Made by a program: the position numbers and the translations under genes. Positions 1 through 26,770 of a DNA stretch of 26,771 bases are shown piece by piece. The notes beneath the pieces were generated by a model, which ran no database searches, was not told where the DNA came from, and saw nothing but the letters and a program-made list of their open reading frames with translations. The number at the start of each line of letters is the position of its first letter. The first letter of the stretch is position 1. The DNA is from a virus. The stretch covers positions 1 to 26,771 of IMG/VR virus record IMGVR_UViG_3300010368_000088; one strand, written 5' to 3'.

Positions 1-13
1 GTCGCGAATCACC
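1..13. repeat. Left copy of 13-bp terminal direct repeat (putative cos end)
   Basis: The first 13 bases, GTCGCGAATCACC, recur exactly at 26758-26770. A 13-base direct repeat at the two ends of a linear phage sequence, next to the small terminase gene, is what a filled-in 12-13 base 5' cohesive end would look like. Lambda, whose terminase is of the same GpA family, has 12-base 5' overhangs. A perfect small inverted repeat, GTAC-AAA-GTAC, sits at 28-38 in the same non-coding end. The repeat itself is seen; the cos assignment is inferred. Confidence 0.55.
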
Positions 14-2066: not shown

Positions 2067-2096
2067 ATACTATCAAACAATTATTCAGGGTGTAAA
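2067..2096 (-). promoter_or_regulatory. Candidate sigma70-like promoter for small early genes
   Basis: On the minus strand, TTTACA (2096-2091, five of six consensus bases) is followed after 18 bases by TAGTAT (2072-2067, four of six). This would start transcription about 40 bases before the gene at 2019. The -35 box lies inside the 19-bp inverted repeat at 2090-2108, so a protein bound there would block the promoter. Confidence 0.5.
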
Positions 2097-2108
2097 GTTT
2101 TTTTACAC
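2090..2108. promoter_or_regulatory. Candidate operator 2 (19-bp inverted sequence)
   Basis: The sequence GTGTAAAGTTTTTTTACAC has perfect 7-base arms (GTGTAAA/TTTACAC). It shares length and the GTGT...ACAC ends with the sites at 6102-6120 and 2551-2569, and matches the first at 15 of 19 positions by my count. It covers the -35 box of the adjacent minus-strand promoter. The phage's own Cro-like protein (5881-6051) is the likely ligand, by inference. Confidence 0.5.
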
Positions 2109-2351
2109 ATTTATTTTGATTTTTTTTTCGATGCGAACCCACGACTGTATCCGCCGGCGTTCGCCCAGGCGGTTTTCGTGTTCGACGCAATCCGGGAACT
2201 GCCGCAGAACTTGAGCCAGGGTGTTCCCGAGTTCCCGCCGGTCGCCACCCCGCCAGATATATTCGTCCCGCAAAAACGGGTAGCTGATCGACTGCCCCAC
2301 GTATTCATTCAGCGTTCGAATAACCGCCAGGGTGTTTGTGTCCAGTGCCAT
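2103..2351 (-). CDS. Small early protein (82 aa), unknown function
   Basis: The 82-residue product begins MALDTNTLAVIRTLNEY and ends in a basic tail (RIEKKIKINV). Nothing in it matches a domain I know. The ATG at 2351 has GGAGG nine bases upstream. A TTAGACAC half-site (2370-2377), like those near the repressor gene, lies just ahead of the ribosome site. It is the first gene after the structured non-coding region, so a role at the origin is possible but unproven. Confidence 0.65.
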   Translation of the reverse strand: MALDTNTLAVIRTLNEYVGQSISYPFLRDEYIWRGGDRRELGNTLAQVLRQFPDCVEHENRLGERRRIQSWVRIEKKIKINV

Positions 2352-2586
2352 GTCGCGTTCCTCCGGTCCTTAGACACTCCAGCGCGGTTAGGGAACCTAC
2401 CCACCCCGCAGCCCACCAGGGCGGAGCGGGTGGGTGGGTTAAAACCCCCCAGTTCTTACTGGGGGTTTATCCCTACCCGCTAGGGTGTCTTAGGGTTTTT
2501 TTAACTACTACACCACCACCCCCTATATATAGGGGTGGGGGGGTGGGTGGGTGTGTGGTTTTTTTACACTTTTTCGTCAATTTTCT
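2352..2586. other. Structured G-rich non-coding region; candidate origin or RNA control region
   Basis: These 235 bases hold no credible gene but much structure. Hairpin 1 (2394-2409 with 2426-2440) has a stem of about 15 pairs with one wobble and one bulge. Hairpin 2 (2446-2453 with 2458-2465) has an 8-bp stem, CCCCCAGT/ACTGGGGG. Hairpin 3 centres on CTATATATAG (2523-2532) with G/C arms. A textbook G-quadruplex motif lies at 2532-2551: runs of 4, 7, 3 and 3 G separated by single T. A 19-bp operator-like site lies at 2551-2569. It follows the helicase gene, a common place for a phage origin. Confidence 0.5.
2551..2569. promoter_or_regulatory. Candidate operator 3 (19-bp inverted sequence)
   Basis: GTGTGTGGTTTTTTTACAC matches the site at 2090-2108 at 16 of 19 positions, including the identical 12-base right half GTTTTTTTACAC. 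The left half has decayed, so it may be a weaker site. It lies between the helicase stop and the G-quadruplex motif. No clear promoter overlaps it, although TTGACG is present on the minus strand at 2580-2575. Confidence 0.4.
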
Positions 2587-3681
2587 TTACGCTTTTGAGT
2601 TCAAAACCACGAACCCGGTCACGATTCCGTTTTTGTTGTGAACTTCTTCTATCTCCCGCGAACTTCGCAGATATTCGCGAATCTCCGCCCTTCTGCCGTC
2701 CAGGTGTTTTGGGAAGTGAATCGGCACCCGACCCGCCGGCGGACCCGGTCTTTTTCCGGTTTCGTGGACGTATTTTTCGCCCTGCCACCCGTCGACGATG
2801 GCGTCGACCTCCTGGCGAATCAGTTCGTTTTGCATTTCGTCCGCCAGCTTCGTGGCCATTTCCTGCGCGTCGTGGTTGAACGGCGCCCAGTCCAAAATCG
2901 ACATTTCGGCGGAGCCGTTTTCGAACTCCACCGGAACCCGGCGCATCGTTCCGGCCCAGGCCGGCGGTTGTTCGACCAGGCGCCAGCGATCCTTTTCCCA
3001 GGTGGCGATCGTCAACCCCAGCTTTTTGTCGTATTCCACCCGGATCGAATAATCGATGTTCCCCACCAGCGCAGACGCTCCCCTGGCGGATTTCCCCTCG
3101 GAAACCTTGCTAGTGTGGTGAACGATAATGATCGTCCCATATTCGCCCAGCAGGGGCAGTATGCGTTCCTCCAGGGCCGCGATTAGCTTTGACGCTTCCC
3201 GGTTGTCGTTTTCATCGAACGAAAACGCCGTCGCCAGGGTGTCGAATATCAAATACCTGGGCGGGTGTTCCATCGTGCCGATCCAGGCTTCGATCAAATC
3301 CAGGTCGCGAATGTCCAGGGATAGGTTTGGCAGAGAATAAAAACCGAACTTAAGTTCGGTGGGTATGCTTGTAACGTAGGCTTTAATGCGCGCCTGGATA
3401 TGCCCCAGGGATTCGCTGAACATCAAAACGTCGCCGGGAATAACCTTGATCCCCTGCCATTCCGTGTGGCCGTGTATAAGGTTTGCGATCAAATCGCAGA
3501 TAATATGAGACTTTCCGCTGTTGCTCGGTCCGTACACCATCCCGATGGATCGCGCCGGGATTAGCTTGTCCAGCATCCATTCCGGCTGTCGGATTTTGAA
3601 ATCCCAGGGTTTGTTCGGGTCGTACTTGGCGATTTTTGAGTTCTGAAACCGCCGCCAGAAAAATTCTTCGTCGTCATTCAT
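2587..3681 (-). CDS. RepA-like hexameric replicative helicase (AAA_25 type)
   Basis: This 364-residue protein is a RecA-fold ATPase of the plasmid/phage RepA helicase type, expected to form a ring and unwind DNA at the phage fork. Walker A is GPSNSGKS at residues 51-58. Walker B is YLIFD ending at Asp147. HHTSK (188-192) and a GASALVGNIDYSIRV segment are typical of the family. The C-terminal third is less conserved and contains a basic stretch. The ATG at 3681 overlaps the zinc-protein stop by eight bases, so the two are probably translated together. The structured region downstream may be its origin. Confidence 0.85.
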   Translation of the reverse strand: MNDDEEFFWRRFQNSKIAKYDPNKPWDFKIRQPEWMLDKLIPARSIGMVYGPSNSGKSHIICDLIANLIHGHTEWQGIKVIPGDVLMFSESLGHIQARIKAYVTSIPTELKFGFYSLPNLSLDIRDLDLIEAWIGTMEHPPRYLIFDTLATAFSFDENDNREASKLIAALEERILPLLGEYGTIIIVHHTSKVSEGKSARGASALVGNIDYSIRVEYDKKLGLTIATWEKDRWRLVEQPPAWAGTMRRVPVEFENGSAEMSILDWAPFNHDAQEMATKLADEMQNELIRQEVDAIVDGWQGEKYVHETGKRPGPPAGRVPIHFPKHLDGRRAEIREYLRSSREIEEVHNKNGIVTGFVVLNSKA

Positions 3682-4093
3682 GGTTTTTGTTACTCCGTAG
3701 CCTATCGCGTTTTTTTCTTAGTTGTTCCGCCCTTTGCGGGTCGACTTTTGTCATTAGCCTGGCGATTGCTTCGAAATCGCCCTGGCTTATTCCTTCCCCC
3801 CGTTTTATGGCGCCTTCCATAACCAGAAGGAAATAGTCGCAGTATTCCAGATCGGTGGTCCGATACCTGGGCGCCTGGTAATCGTCGCGGTCGACAAGTC
3901 CGCGCGACTCAAGTTCGCGGGCGATGTCTGGATAGGTGCATCCGTAGCGACAATGAACCAGGAAATTGGCGGATCGACCCGGTTTAACGTGGAATCGGTC
4001 CGTTCCGCCGCATATCGGGCATGGTCCCTTCCATTCGGAACCAGCCCGTCGTAACCCCAGAGAATCGGCGACCGCTTGCGGGTCGCCCCGCAT
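3674..4093 (-). CDS. Primase-type zinc-finger protein, no polymerase domain
   Basis: The 139-residue protein has an N-terminal zinc module like the DNA-binding end of P4/DnaG-type primases: GPCPICGGTDRF with Cys25 and Cys28, then HCRYGC with Cys48 and Cys52. The rest is helical and charged. No TOPRIM or archaeo-eukaryotic primase core follows. It may recognise initiation sites or load the helicase while host primase makes the primers; this is inference. The start overlaps the SSB-like gene's stop as TGATG, and the stop overlaps the helicase start, so all three appear to be one translational unit. Confidence 0.75.
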   Translation of the reverse strand: MRGDPQAVADSLGLRRAGSEWKGPCPICGGTDRFHVKPGRSANFLVHCRYGCTYPDIARELESRGLVDRDDYQAPRYRTTDLEYCDYFLLVMEGAIKRGEGISQGDFEAIARLMTKVDPQRAEQLRKKRDRLRSNKNHE

Positions 4094-4524
4094 CAGAACG
4101 GAATATCTTCGTCGTGGAACGCCGCCGGCTCCGGTGCCGGGGCCGGTGCTGGCGCAGCCTGGGCTTTTTCATAAACCCGGAATGTTTTCGGTCGCAGGAA
4201 CGAACCGTCATATTCCAGCAGGGCTTCGCAGTATTTGCCGACCAGTTCGACCGGGTTCATCGGATCGCGGACCGAATTACAGCCGCAGGCGATCATCATG
4301 GTGGCCAGTTCCCGGCGCGCGATTTCGTCCGCCTTTGGGTTCGGGTGGCCGATGTTCAGGTTCGACCAGCATTTCCCACCCTTCGCCGCCAGGGTAACCG
4401 AAACGTACTGGTTCCCCTTCGCGCTGGTTTTGGTGATGATTTCGTCTATTCGAACCGGGTTCCAGCCTTCTTTCAGTTCTGCTCCGCCGGTCTGTTCTAG
4501 GTATTCTGTCGCGTTAAACGTCAT
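4093..4524 (-). CDS. DUF669 phage single-strand DNA-binding protein with SSB-like tail
   Basis: The 143-residue protein begins MTFNATEYLEQ and has a beta-rich core typical of DUF669 proteins, which sit in phage recombination operons and are thought to bind single-stranded DNA. A proline-alanine linker (about 123-134) leads to the final residues DEDIPF. This closely copies the acidic DDDIPF tip of bacterial SSB, the dock for host replication and repair proteins. AAGGA lies nine bases before the ATG. Neighbours are the Sak4-like ATPase upstream and the primase-like protein downstream, which fits a replication role. Confidence 0.8.
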   Translation of the reverse strand: MTFNATEYLEQTGGAELKEGWNPVRIDEIITKTSAKGNQYVSVTLAAKGGKCWSNLNIGHPNPKADEIARRELATMMIACGCNSVRDPMNPVELVGKYCEALLEYDGSFLRPKTFRVYEKAQAAPAPAPAPEPAAFHDEDIPF

Positions 4525-4558
4525 TTTTTAGTTTCCTTTTGTGGTTGAAATGGCGCGG

Positions 4559-5290
4559 TTACCCGCGCAGTGCTGCCATAAATGCCGCCCAATCCAGGGG
4601 CATTTCGGGCGGTAGCCCGAATCGGTTTTTGGCGATCCATGCCGGGCGTTCCTCGGTATACATGACCCGTTCGCCCGACCCGGTGCCGCGAGTTCTGATT
4701 CGTCCGCGATCCTCGGTTTTGATTGTCTGGTAAACCTGGTTCGCGAAAAATATCGCGTCGGAATGCTCCGATACCAGGTCCGCCGCTTTGTTCTGCAGCT
4801 TTATCACGTAGCGGTCGAACGCTTCGGCGTCCGGTGCTTCGAATCGCTTGACGGCGGAATGCCCAATCAAAACGGTGGCCATTCGCTTTTCCGATCGCAG
4901 ATAATTAATCCGGTCCAGGAATTCGCGCCAATACTTCAGCGCCTCGACATAACCGCGCCCGTATCCCGGCTGCTCGATCGACGTCCACTTGTTCGCCTCG
5001 CAGGTGTGCGCCCAGATCAACGGTTCCAGCCAGTCCAGGGAATCGACCACCAGGGTTCGGTAGTCGTGTTCGCCAGAAATCAGCGAATCCAGGGCCGCGC
5101 GTACTTCCTGGTACGTTTTCGGCGTCGGAAACGCGTCCGCCTCAATAGTTCCCAGGCCGTCTTCAATCGGCAAAAAAATCGGTTTCGGTGCCGCAGCGCC
5201 GAACGTCGTTTTCCCAACCCCGGCGGGTCCGTAGATCAACACCCTGGGCGGTTGCTTTGTGCCGCCTTTGGTTATCGCTTTTAGGTCCAT
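4559..5290 (-). CDS. RecA-like phage ATPase, AAA_24/Sak4 type
   Basis: This 243-residue ATPase has Walker A GPAGVGKTT at residues 21-29 and Walker B TLVVDSLDWLE with Asp at about 83. The family (AAA_24; Sak4 in some phages) acts as a single-strand annealing or strand-exchange protein in phage recombination, usually beside an SSB-like partner, as here. The family role is established; activity here is inferred. The ATG at 5290 directly follows the upstream TAA, with GGGAG ten bases before it. Length is typical. The plus-strand exonuclease (6139-7071) could supply its single-stranded substrate. Confidence 0.85.
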   Translation of the reverse strand: MDLKAITKGGTKQPPRVLIYGPAGVGKTTFGAAAPKPIFLPIEDGLGTIEADAFPTPKTYQEVRAALDSLISGEHDYRTLVVDSLDWLEPLIWAHTCEANKWTSIEQPGYGRGYVEALKYWREFLDRINYLRSEKRMATVLIGHSAVKRFEAPDAEAFDRYVIKLQNKAADLVSEHSDAIFFANQVYQTIKTEDRGRIRTRGTGSGERVMYTEERPAWIAKNRFGLPPEMPLDWAAFMAALRG

Positions 5291-5674
5291 TTATAGGTTC
5301 TCCCTTATCAGTCCACAAAATAGCTCCAACGAAATTTCGCCGGTGCATCTAAAATCTTCTAGTTCGAACAAGTCGCCTGGGTATGCCACCAGAACCCGCC
5401 AGGGCGCCCTATCAGCGCGGAAACAAACCGCTGGCATCTTGTCCACCCTGCGCGCCTGTTTCACCGCTTGCGCCCAAAACGTGGCTTTGTCGGCGTTCGT
5501 GATCGTGGCGTAACGCTTGCATTCGATCGCCCAGTAATCCAGGCCGATCAAGTCGTGACCACCGCCGAACGATTGCGCCAGGTTGCGTTCCAGGCGAATC
5601 CCGGTCTCCGCTTCGATTTCCCGAATCAGTTCGCGTTCGCCGCCGGCGCCTTTATTTCTGCTACTCGCTCCCAT
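5291..5674 (-). CDS. PDDEXK nuclease, Holliday-junction resolvase-like
   Basis: From the ATG at 5674 the product is 127 residues. It has the PDDEXK core: Glu13 in GGERELI, Asp41 in GGGHDLIG, and Glu51-x-Lys53 in AIECKRY, a typical metal-dependent nuclease centre. Small phage proteins with this core include junction resolvases and VRR-NUC-type nucleases; I cannot tell which this is. A start at 5776 would add 34 very basic residues that run inside the previous gene, so I reject it. AAGG lies about ten bases before the chosen ATG. It probably resolves or trims recombination intermediates. Confidence 0.75.
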   Translation of the reverse strand: MGASSRNKGAGGERELIREIEAETGIRLERNLAQSFGGGHDLIGLDYWAIECKRYATITNADKATFWAQAVKQARRVDKMPAVCFRADRAPWRVLVAYPGDLFELEDFRCTGEISLELFCGLIRENL

Positions 5675-5906
5675 TGCGCGCCGCCTTCGCCGCTTTAAGC
5701 CGCCGCCATTCCTTCTGTTGCTGCGCCTTGCGATAGGCTTCGGGAATGTTCGCAGCCACTCCCAGCAAAAACGCACCCCACAACGGCGCCATGACCCACC
5801 ACCAGGACCATTCTATAAATCCCGCCAGCTTTAGGCCGACAAACATCAGCAAAAAGTTATCGATCAATCGCCCCATGCGTTCACTCGCCTGCTTGCTTTC
5901 GCTCAC
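5661..5906 (-). CDS. Small integral membrane protein, unknown function
   Basis: The 81-residue protein has two neighbouring hydrophobic segments (about residues 17-31 and 33-51; LIDNFLLMFVGLKLAGF and WVMAPLWGAFLLGVAA) and a basic C-terminal tail. The start is a GTG at 5906, supported by GGAGG nine bases upstream; an internal ATG at 5876 has only a weak site. It overlaps the repressor gene by 26 bases and the nuclease gene by 14. An early phage membrane protein could serve in superinfection exclusion or lysis timing, but nothing in the sequence proves either. Confidence 0.6.
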   Translation of the reverse strand: MSESKQASERMGRLIDNFLLMFVGLKLAGFIEWSWWWVMAPLWGAFLLGVAANIPEAYRKAQQQKEWRRLKAAKAARNGSE

Positions 5907-6051
5907 GAATTAAAACCTCCGACTGCATGATTCTAAGCGCGGGCATTTCGCCCTTTCGCCGCCAGTAGTAGATCGTCTGCCTGGTAACCCCCAGCGCGCG
6001 CGCAGTGTGTGCGACGCCGCCGAATTCCCGGATGATTTCCTCAAGTGTCAT
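5881..6051 (-). CDS. Cro-like helix-turn-helix repressor
   Basis: The 56-residue protein is nearly all helix-turn-helix: ARALGVTRQTIYYWRRKG (about residues 15-32) is a clear recognition unit of the Cro/YdaS kind. It begins MTLEEIIREFGG at 6051 with GGGAA upstream. A GTG at 6075 in the same frame falls inside the inverted repeat TTTGACAC and is less likely. It is transcribed away from the only plus-strand gene, and the shared intergenic region holds inverted repeats. I infer it binds these and controls both directions. No larger CI-type repressor with a peptidase domain is present. Confidence 0.75.
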   Translation of the reverse strand: MTLEEIIREFGGVAHTARALGVTRQTIYYWRRKGEMPALRIMQSEVLIRERKQAGE

Positions 6052-6067
6052 TTTCTGTTCCCGTTGA

Positions 6068-6109
6068 TTTGACACCCGAACCGTAAACGCTTATTTTGCC
6101 AGTGTCAAA
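6068..6109. promoter_or_regulatory. Overlapping face-to-face promoters between repressor and exonuclease
   Basis: TTTGACAC (6068-6075) and its exact reverse complement GTGTCAAA (6102-6109) each contain a perfect -35 box. Plus strand: TTGACA 6069-6074, 17 bases, TATTTT 6092-6097, starting the exonuclease transcript near 6104. Minus strand: TTGACA 6108-6103, 17 bases, TACGGT 6085-6080 (weak), leading to the repressor at 6051. The two promoters occupy the same 40 bases and should exclude each other. Confidence 0.6.
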
Positions 6110-6120
6110 TTTTTAGACAC
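6102..6120. promoter_or_regulatory. Candidate operator 1 (19-bp inverted sequence)
   Basis: GTGTCAAATTTTTAGACAC has symmetric GTGTC/GACAC ends. It covers the expected start point of the exonuclease transcript and the -35 box of the opposite promoter. It is the same length as, and closely similar to, the sites at 2090-2108 and 2551-2569. The adjacent Cro-like protein is the likely ligand, by inference. Confidence 0.55.
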
Positions 6121-6138: not shown

Positions 6139-7071
6139 ATGGTTGGCAAATTATCAGACGATCGCAAAATGTCCGGCTCGCGAATTCCGGTCCTTTACTC
6201 TTGGAAACATGGCGTTCCCCATCCCTGGTCGACGCCGAACGACGAACTTCGAAAATCGATCCAGGCAACACTGGGCGAATATGAGTCGTTCGACATCGGC
6301 GAACCTGGCATCGTGGGGAACCTCCTGGAACCCGCCCTGGTCACCAGTGTATGCCAGGAACTCGGCTTGCCAGAACCCGAACTCACGCCACCTGTATACA
6401 AACGCGACACGTTTGAGGCCAGCTGCGACGGTTTGGTCCAGGTCGACCAGCCAGTGACAGTTCGCAGCGCGGGTATTGTCGACGTCCAGGGTGGCGAACT
6501 CACGCTGTCCGGGCCGGTGCCGATCGAATGCAAAGTAACCACCGCGCCACCGACCGACGAAATCCCGCTTTACCGGGGGCCGATTCAGCTTCAGGCGCAA
6601 ATGCTCGCGACCGGCGCCAATGCCGGGATCATTATTACCCTTCACCGGGGCATCGAACGCCGAATTCACGTCATCCCGGCGAACCCGGTTATTCAGTCAG
6701 AAATTAACCAGATATGCGCGGAATTCCAGGAACGGGTAATCACCCGCCGGTGGTATGCCCCGGTTAACGTCGACGACGCCGTGATTCCGCCAGCATCGAA
6801 CGAAAAGGATTCAGTCGACGTGCCGGACCTGGTCGACGATGTCGGCGCCCTGGAACGCTTACGGGGCGAACGCCGCGACCTGGACGACCAGATCGCCGCC
6901 CTGGAACTGAAAATCATGGACGCCCTGGGCGATGCCCAGGTGGGTACGGCAGGGCCGTACCAAATCGAATGGCCGGTGCGCCACTATAAGGCGCAGCCGG
7001 AAAAGGTAACACCCGCCAAACCCGAGCGAACAATCCGTTTGAAAACATTGAAAATTCGCGCTATGGTTTGA
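6139..7071 (+). CDS. YqaJ-like recombination exonuclease
   Basis: The only plus-strand gene encodes a 310-residue protein of the YqaJ/lambda-exonuclease fold, which degrades one strand of duplex DNA to feed annealing. Visible core residues are Glu64 (NLLEPAL), Asp97 (SCDGL), Glu130-x-Lys132 (PIECKV) and the downstream glutamines in PIQLQAQML (Q150, Q152, Q154). The last third is a coiled, charged region (ERLRGERRDLDDQIAALELK) that may be for partner binding. AAGGA precedes the ATG. It has its own promoter and terminator, so it is controlled apart from its partners, the Sak4-like ATPase and the SSB-like protein. Confidence 0.8.
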   Translation: MVGKLSDDRKMSGSRIPVLYSWKHGVPHPWSTPNDELRKSIQATLGEYESFDIGEPGIVGNLLEPALVTSVCQELGLPEPELTPPVYKRDTFEASCDGLVQVDQPVTVRSAGIVDVQGGELTLSGPVPIECKVTTAPPTDEIPLYRGPIQLQAQMLATGANAGIIITLHRGIERRIHVIPANPVIQSEINQICAEFQERVITRRWYAPVNVDDAVIPPASNEKDSVDVPDLVDDVGALERLRGERRDLDDQIAALELKIMDALGDAQVGTAGPYQIEWPVRHYKAQPEKVTPAKPERTIRLKTLKIRAMV

Positions 7072-8966: not shown

Positions 8967-9287
8967 TTATGCCATGTCAAACCGTTTTACGTCCGCCTCG
9001 GCAATTAGCATTCGCGCCCTGGTCAAGTCCGCATAATAGGCGCCGCGACAATGATCGGGTGCCCACCACTTGAACGCCCAATCGATCGCGATTCGTAGTT
9101 GTTTCCAGCCTGGCCGGGCGCGTAGCCGCCAGGAACGCCCGCTGATCGATTCGTTCGGGTTGTTGCCCAGGAATATGGCAACATTCAATAACTGCGATAT
9201 GGCGTCACCGACGCGAATGCAATAATCGCGCAAACGATAAACAGCAAGGGTATACATAATCCGATAATTCCGCATAACACCACCCAT
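8967..9287 (-). CDS. Conserved phage protein with NPNESISGRSWR motif
   Basis: This 106-residue basic protein contains DYCIRVGDAISQLLNVAIFL, NPNESISGRSWRLR and a tryptophan-rich DWAFKWWAPDHC segment. The same motif series is common in phage proteins near lysis genes, whose function is not known. The C-terminal half is amphipathic and may lie on the membrane. The ATG at 9287 lacks a good ribosome site; an internal ATG at 9275 has GGTGG close by and may be the true start. It lies between the fibre genes and the holins. Confidence 0.55.
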   Translation of the reverse strand: MGGVMRNYRIMYTLAVYRLRDYCIRVGDAISQLLNVAIFLGNNPNESISGRSWRLRARPGWKQLRIAIDWAFKWWAPDHCRGAYYADLTRARMLIAEADVKRFDMA

Positions 9288-26757: not shown

Positions 26758-26770
26758 GTCGCGAATCACC
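26758..26770. repeat. Right copy of 13-bp terminal direct repeat (putative cos end)
   Basis: An exact copy of bases 1-13, followed by one extra A at 26771. The extra A fits a 3' A added to filled-in ends during library preparation, but could equally be the true next base. If the two copies are one overhang, the circular genome is about 26,757-26,758 bp. Joining the ends puts the gpZ-like gene directly before terS. Confidence 0.55.

Follow-up and report, generated by a model that had tools for sequence, protein, structure and literature searches.

The window analysed here, a stretch of 26,771 nucleotides of viral DNA, contains three similar 19-bp sites of the form GTGT-N11-ACAC, and the question they raise is whether a single phage-encoded repressor uses them as operators. 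The sites, none of which is assigned to a strand, lie at 2090–2108 (GTGTAAAGTTTTTTTACAC, operator A), 2551–2569 (GTGTGTGGTTTTTTTACAC, operator B, just beyond the helicase stop) and 6102–6120 (GTGTCAAATTTTTAGACAC, the main operator, between the exonuclease gene exo and the Cro-like gene cro). We found all three at the positions and with the sequences given in an earlier note on this DNA.

In the 26.8-kb window the pattern GTGT-N11-ACAC matched four times, against 0.18 times expected from dinucleotide shuffles, and none of 100 such shuffles contained four matches; as a set, the three sites are real and beyond chance. The fourth match (514–532) lies within the minor tail gene and has 10–12 of 19 bases in common with the other three, and we set it aside as unrelated. 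The identity between pairs had been put at 15–16 of 19 bases, which is right for 2090/2551 (16) and 2090/6102 (15); for 2551/6102 we counted 13, so for this pair the figure was wrong.

The putative ligand is a helix-turn-helix protein of 56 residues encoded at 5881–6051 on the minus strand, with the recognition helix TRQTIYYW. It scored above the Pfam cut-off for P22_Cro (PF14549; E = 6e-9, 36.0 bits vs 30.2), and the best match of its family profile was N15 Cro (2hin/6on0, E = 1.5e-11). The AlphaFold model had a mean pLDDT of 95.6. Its best Foldseek match, with a probability of 1.00 and an E value of only 2.6e-3, was 6on0, i.e., N15 Cro with operator DNA, followed by XPH1, Xfaso 1 and P22 Cro. 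By sequence and by modelled fold, the protein is a P22/N15-type Cro, and N15 Cro is its closest solved relative on both counts. Four residues in the region of the recognition helix (R24, Q25, Y28 and W30) are invariant across the family, as would be expected if the TGTC arm of the operator is invariant too.

Behind cro, the same leftward run (2587–5906, minus strand) encodes g5661, a RusA-like/PDDEXK protein, Sak4, an SSB-like protein, a primase zinc finger and an AAA_25 helicase. The only large rightward gene (6139–7071, plus strand) encodes a RecE/YqaJ-like recombination exonuclease (PHROG 434, 2.5e-14), a relative of which in Methylophilales phage MEP301 is annotated as YqaJ. Many IMG/VR sequences are related to this exonuclease, which lies beside site 6102, and those at about 47–97% exonuclease identity share the order of the early block: leftward cro, g5661 (nearer relatives only), RusA-like, Sak4, SSB-like, primase zinc finger and helicase, with exo rightward. 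With an HMM we found the Cro-like protein in 39 relatives, giving 40 Cro+ loci together with the window.

These loci were searched with a symmetric matrix built from 11 exo-promoter sites. An exo/cro operator occurred 16–55 bp past the cro start in 40/40 of them. Across 22 non-redundant copies, 11 of the 19 columns were invariant (TGTCAA, the core T, a T and the ACA-side letters), and the mean information per column was 1.45 bits, vs 0.40 in the upstream promoter zone and 0.29 downstream. All 64 matches with a score of at least 18 in the Cro+ loci fell at three syntenic places, namely the exo/cro promoter (40), promoter A to the left of g2103 (17) and the helicase 3' end, where B lies (7). With the exo site excluded, 17 selected loci gave 18 distal matches within 10.7 kb (a 630-bp helicase-to-A stretch per locus) and none in the other 205 kb, the loci being mutually related and therefore not independent trials; column-permuted symmetric matrices run on the same 17 loci gave 0.01 distal matches on average. 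Operator A was present in 20 of the 22 loci having enough left flank.

Similar results were obtained by other routes. When the bare pattern GTGTMAARTTTTTTTACAC was scanned over all of IMG/VR, with no use of homology, it returned 13 stretches, 8 of them with a Cro-like gene and the same gene block. A looser pattern gave about 21 sites in 14 whole records, nearly all at the expected places, and its reversed-pattern control gave 0. Thus the matrix scan that the earlier note had proposed shows that the operator, the cro gene and the arrangement of the genes have been conserved as a unit in 40 loci; the motif was examined for being equally frequent within genes or unconserved in relatives, and the regulon reading was not refuted. 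Given the kinship among Cro+ loci, and since Cro+ and Cro– phages are also separated by descent, the association of operator and cro is not an independent one.

A symmetric matrix built solely from the relatives' exonuclease promoters, then run on the window, ranked 6102 first (27.8), 2090 second (24.5) and 2551 third (13.6). On shuffled windows the top match of this matrix averaged 11.8, with one extreme of 25.5, so 2551 is not significant by itself. Operator A has one mismatch relative to the exo operator of L010/L011. We consider it probable, from sequence comparison, that one N15-Cro-like repressor encoded by the phage uses the sites as operators to act on its own operon, on the exonuclease and on the leftward small-gene block. 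The proposal that there is one operator regulon, with the 56-residue protein as its likely ligand, is strongly supported by the comparison of the 40 loci.

Two of the three sites indeed cover promoter elements: 6102 sits at the exo start point, and the left arm of 2090 is the TTTACA –35 box of a leftward promoter. The exo promoter (6069–6097, plus strand, TTGACA-17-TATTTT) was the top sigma70-like match in the first 7.3 kb, and operator 6102 begins 33 nt after the start of its –35, just downstream of its –10. In the relatives the operator begins 31–34 nt after the exo –35 start, and 20 of the 22 non-redundant loci have an exo promoter with 9–11 of 12 matches and a spacer of 16–18. The leftward cro promoter (6080–6108, minus strand, TTGACA-17-TACGGT) diverges from the exo promoter and overlaps it, and its –35 box is the left arm of the operator (TGTCAA, 6103–6108). 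Read leftward, this arm is TTGACA in 22/22 non-redundant relatives, with a fair –10 at 16–18 nt and a total promoter score of 9–11/12. A palindromic operator over a promoter beside the repressor's own gene, as in P22/N15-type Cro systems, was thus found in 40/40 Cro+ loci, with the cro –35 inside it.

Promoter A (2067–2096, minus strand, TTTACA-18-TAGTAT) reads into g1825 and the small leftward genes. In 20/20 loci the operator arm there is TTTACA or TTGACA (TTTACG in two), 16–18 nt from a fair –10, and the promoter scored 8–10/12 at all 20 A sites; the background probability was 0.0006 for a score of at least 9 and 0.0047 for at least 8. In the 5' leader of the A transcript (2040–2065) a small element resembling a hairpin (CATCGGCTGnnnnCAGCC or CATGGCCGGGGTGGTCCTGGCC) is conserved within variable surrounding sequence; it was also seen in L007, L009, L055, L059, L071, L079 and L083.

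The two extra half-sites that had been listed as repressor sites are present, and both are otherwise explained. The first, TTTGACAC at 6068–6075, contains the exo –35 hexamer, and its place becomes a second, weak operator only in a few relatives (L008, L009, L013, L077). The second, TTAGACAC at 2370–2377, belongs to a predicted long-range stem, as the arm that pairs with an upstream AAGACACCCT-type sequence. In 2370–2500 and in relatives, the predicted stem pairs AAGACACCCT-type with AGGGTGTCTT-like sequence and encloses terminator-like hairpins between the stem-loop described below and g2103.

That TTGACA/TTTACA –35 hexamers already supply half of the motif leads to an alternative, which we regard as decidedly unlikely, that 6102 is the only true autoregulatory operator, with 2090 and 2551 being either –35 boxes or T-rich dyads that arose by chance. 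The near-chance score of 2551 in the window is in line with it, as is the retention of promoter A in L016/L022 after loss of the dyad's second arm, meaning that the dyad is dispensable for the promoter and can be lost. However, a –35 box leaves unexplained the second arm, which is nevertheless kept at A in nearly all of the loci with sufficient flank; permuted matrices also yielded next to none of the distal matches, and the B place is strong (20.6–22.6) in L079, L082, L083 and L009. In L014/L020, operator A falls within the 3' end of the gene before it, where coding constraint could help preserve it.

Very unlikely, in our estimate, is the alternative that a host regulator adopted by the phage, e.g., a TyrR-like one, binds the sites while the Cro-like protein binds elsewhere. 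The TyrR box is TGTAAA-N6-TTTACA, and the arms of A (TGTAAA...TTTACA) resemble it; moreover, five of the pattern-matched contigs (L056, L058, L060, L061, L062) have the site and lack a Cro-like gene. Yet the spacer is N5 rather than N6, the main operator has TGTCAA rather than TGTAAA, the site stands beside cro itself in every Cro+ locus, and in L060, L061 and L062, three of those contigs, it falls within a reading frame.

Binding of all the promoter sites by the Cro-like repressor remains our preferred reading. The three sites do not, however, have the equal standing that they had been given: 2551 is weak in this phage, is absent in several clades (L011, L013, L014, L020, L064 and L071, in the matrix scan of Cro+ loci) and has no promoter that we could find over it on either strand. 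It may be an accessory or decaying operator.

Adjoining B is a stem-loop (2516–2546, minus strand) with CCCCTATATATA in its loop. In the window its stem has just 8 bp and does not exceed the best one obtained from shuffled sequence; relatives (L009, L011, L013, L014, L016, L064, L071) have perfect stems of 12–16 bp that differ in sequence and share a similar loop (CCCYTAnnTAWATA-like), at or right after the helicase stop. The element had no Rfam match and is a candidate for an origin, a primase site or an RNA 3' element. The distances between A and B (412–479 bp) have no common helical phase, which bears on the question of looping.

It is unlikely, though conceivable, that B and the stem-loop form a repressor-controlled origin, with the repressor also gating DNA replication; if so, in this lineage of integrase-free 27-kb phages, one 56-residue protein would time recombination, the start of replication and the move to late expression. 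That the protein chiefly controls replication through B beside an origin, promoter control being secondary, is most improbable: B does adjoin a stem-loop that follows the helicase gene and has a conserved loop, and B has no promoter under it, but many relatives keep the stem-loop without B while the exo/cro and A operators persist, and the GC skew in the window is uniformly negative, with no origin signal.

Our repressor model is then as follows. We infer that a repressor dimer would bind dyads of the type TGTCAA-n5-TTnGACA. With the exo and cro promoters pointing apart and overlapping, the –35 of each promoter coincides with, or is close to, the start point of the other, and bound operator 6102 would cover the start point of exo as well as the –35 box of cro. 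As the protein accumulated, it would presumably shut off its own operon, with its recombination and replication genes, together with the exonuclease. Operator 2090 would cover the –35 of promoter A, at the head of the leftward small-gene block.

A 12–13 base repeat occurs at the ends of the window (1–13 and 26758–26770), and the terminase small subunit gene, which directly follows the minor tail gene in L007/L063, is at the opposite end from it in the window; the window is therefore probably a complete, circularly permuted genome. On such a circular map, the leftward block may continue beyond the small genes, and the A transcript may run through the packaging (terminase), head, tail and lysis genes, though terminators or additional promoters may lie along this path.

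Another possible site, C (8974–8992; score 9.9 in the window and 13–17 in relatives), was set aside as probably reflecting coding conservation: its DNA specifies a conserved peptide, ADVKRFDMA, and no –10 stands at a suitable distance. The site C dyad (ATGTCAAAACGCTTGACGT in relatives L005, L006, L007, L059 and L067) is at the g8967 3' end, ahead of the lysis genes. On the unrelated contig L056 (1359–1463), three similar sites are clustered upstream of a gene for 342 residues, with an XRE-type helix-turn-helix gene nearby and no Cro-like gene.

We recognised no prophage repressor or CI-like protein among the window proteins scanned. Searching 14 records, several of them possibly incomplete, for tyrosine integrases (PF00589) found none, and the phage is apparently integrase-free. 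An HTH_3 search of the 14 records found nothing in the window's own record. Six records gave weak matches that fit the Cro-like gene, and G004 has a second helix-turn-helix gene adjoining cro. Directly behind cro, L022 (7300–8010) and L016 (6130–6840), the lineage without the A dyad, encode a second helix-turn-helix protein of about 105 residues with cysteines near its C-terminus. Of the features of a lambda-type switch, an opposing prophage repressor (CI/CB/c2) sharing the operators was not seen among the window proteins scanned, nor did the PF00589 search point to an integrase or plasmid-prophage maintenance. A near-identity search among named phages found nothing, genome contigs searched for a clue to the host gave only distant exo relatives in two MAGs, and our literature search found no paper on this phage group or operator.

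Like the 56-residue protein, N15 Cro (gp39) and the Cro proteins of phiKO2 and PY54, the lytic repressors of telomere phages, are small all-helical helix-turn-helix proteins with palindromic operators in a divergent promoter region. The operators of the N15 group are 16 bp long (T-A-N10-T-A) and lie between cro and the prophage repressor gene, and a single operator is bound by phiKO2 Cro and likewise by PY54 Cro (PMC4997575, PMC4488713), which would make several targets per genome unusual for this subgroup. In contrast, the window has a 19-bp TGTC-based dyad at two or three places and no recognised prophage repressor, and on the far side of the divergent region from cro stands the exonuclease gene. 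In the temperate phage P22, Cro is opposed by the c2 repressor, whereas a c2-like partner was not found in the window. Lambda Cro is one small repressor that lowers the early leftward and rightward promoters through shared OL/OR operators, and by analogy the proposed mode of action here would be similar. Lambda Cro, however, belongs to a different Cro fold class and matches the window protein only weakly; the window also has no CI that we could find and no three-operator cluster per promoter.

The locus is thus a well-supported new example, in a little-known phage group, of an ordinary kind of phage switch. For phages in which no prophage repressor has been recognised, it supplies an operator code for a Cro-like protein that can be put to the test, along with about 40 naturally occurring versions of the protein and its site that are usable for studying the recognition helix. 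In these uncultured phages, seen only in metagenomes, recombination, replication and perhaps the late genes may be under the minimal control of a single protein.
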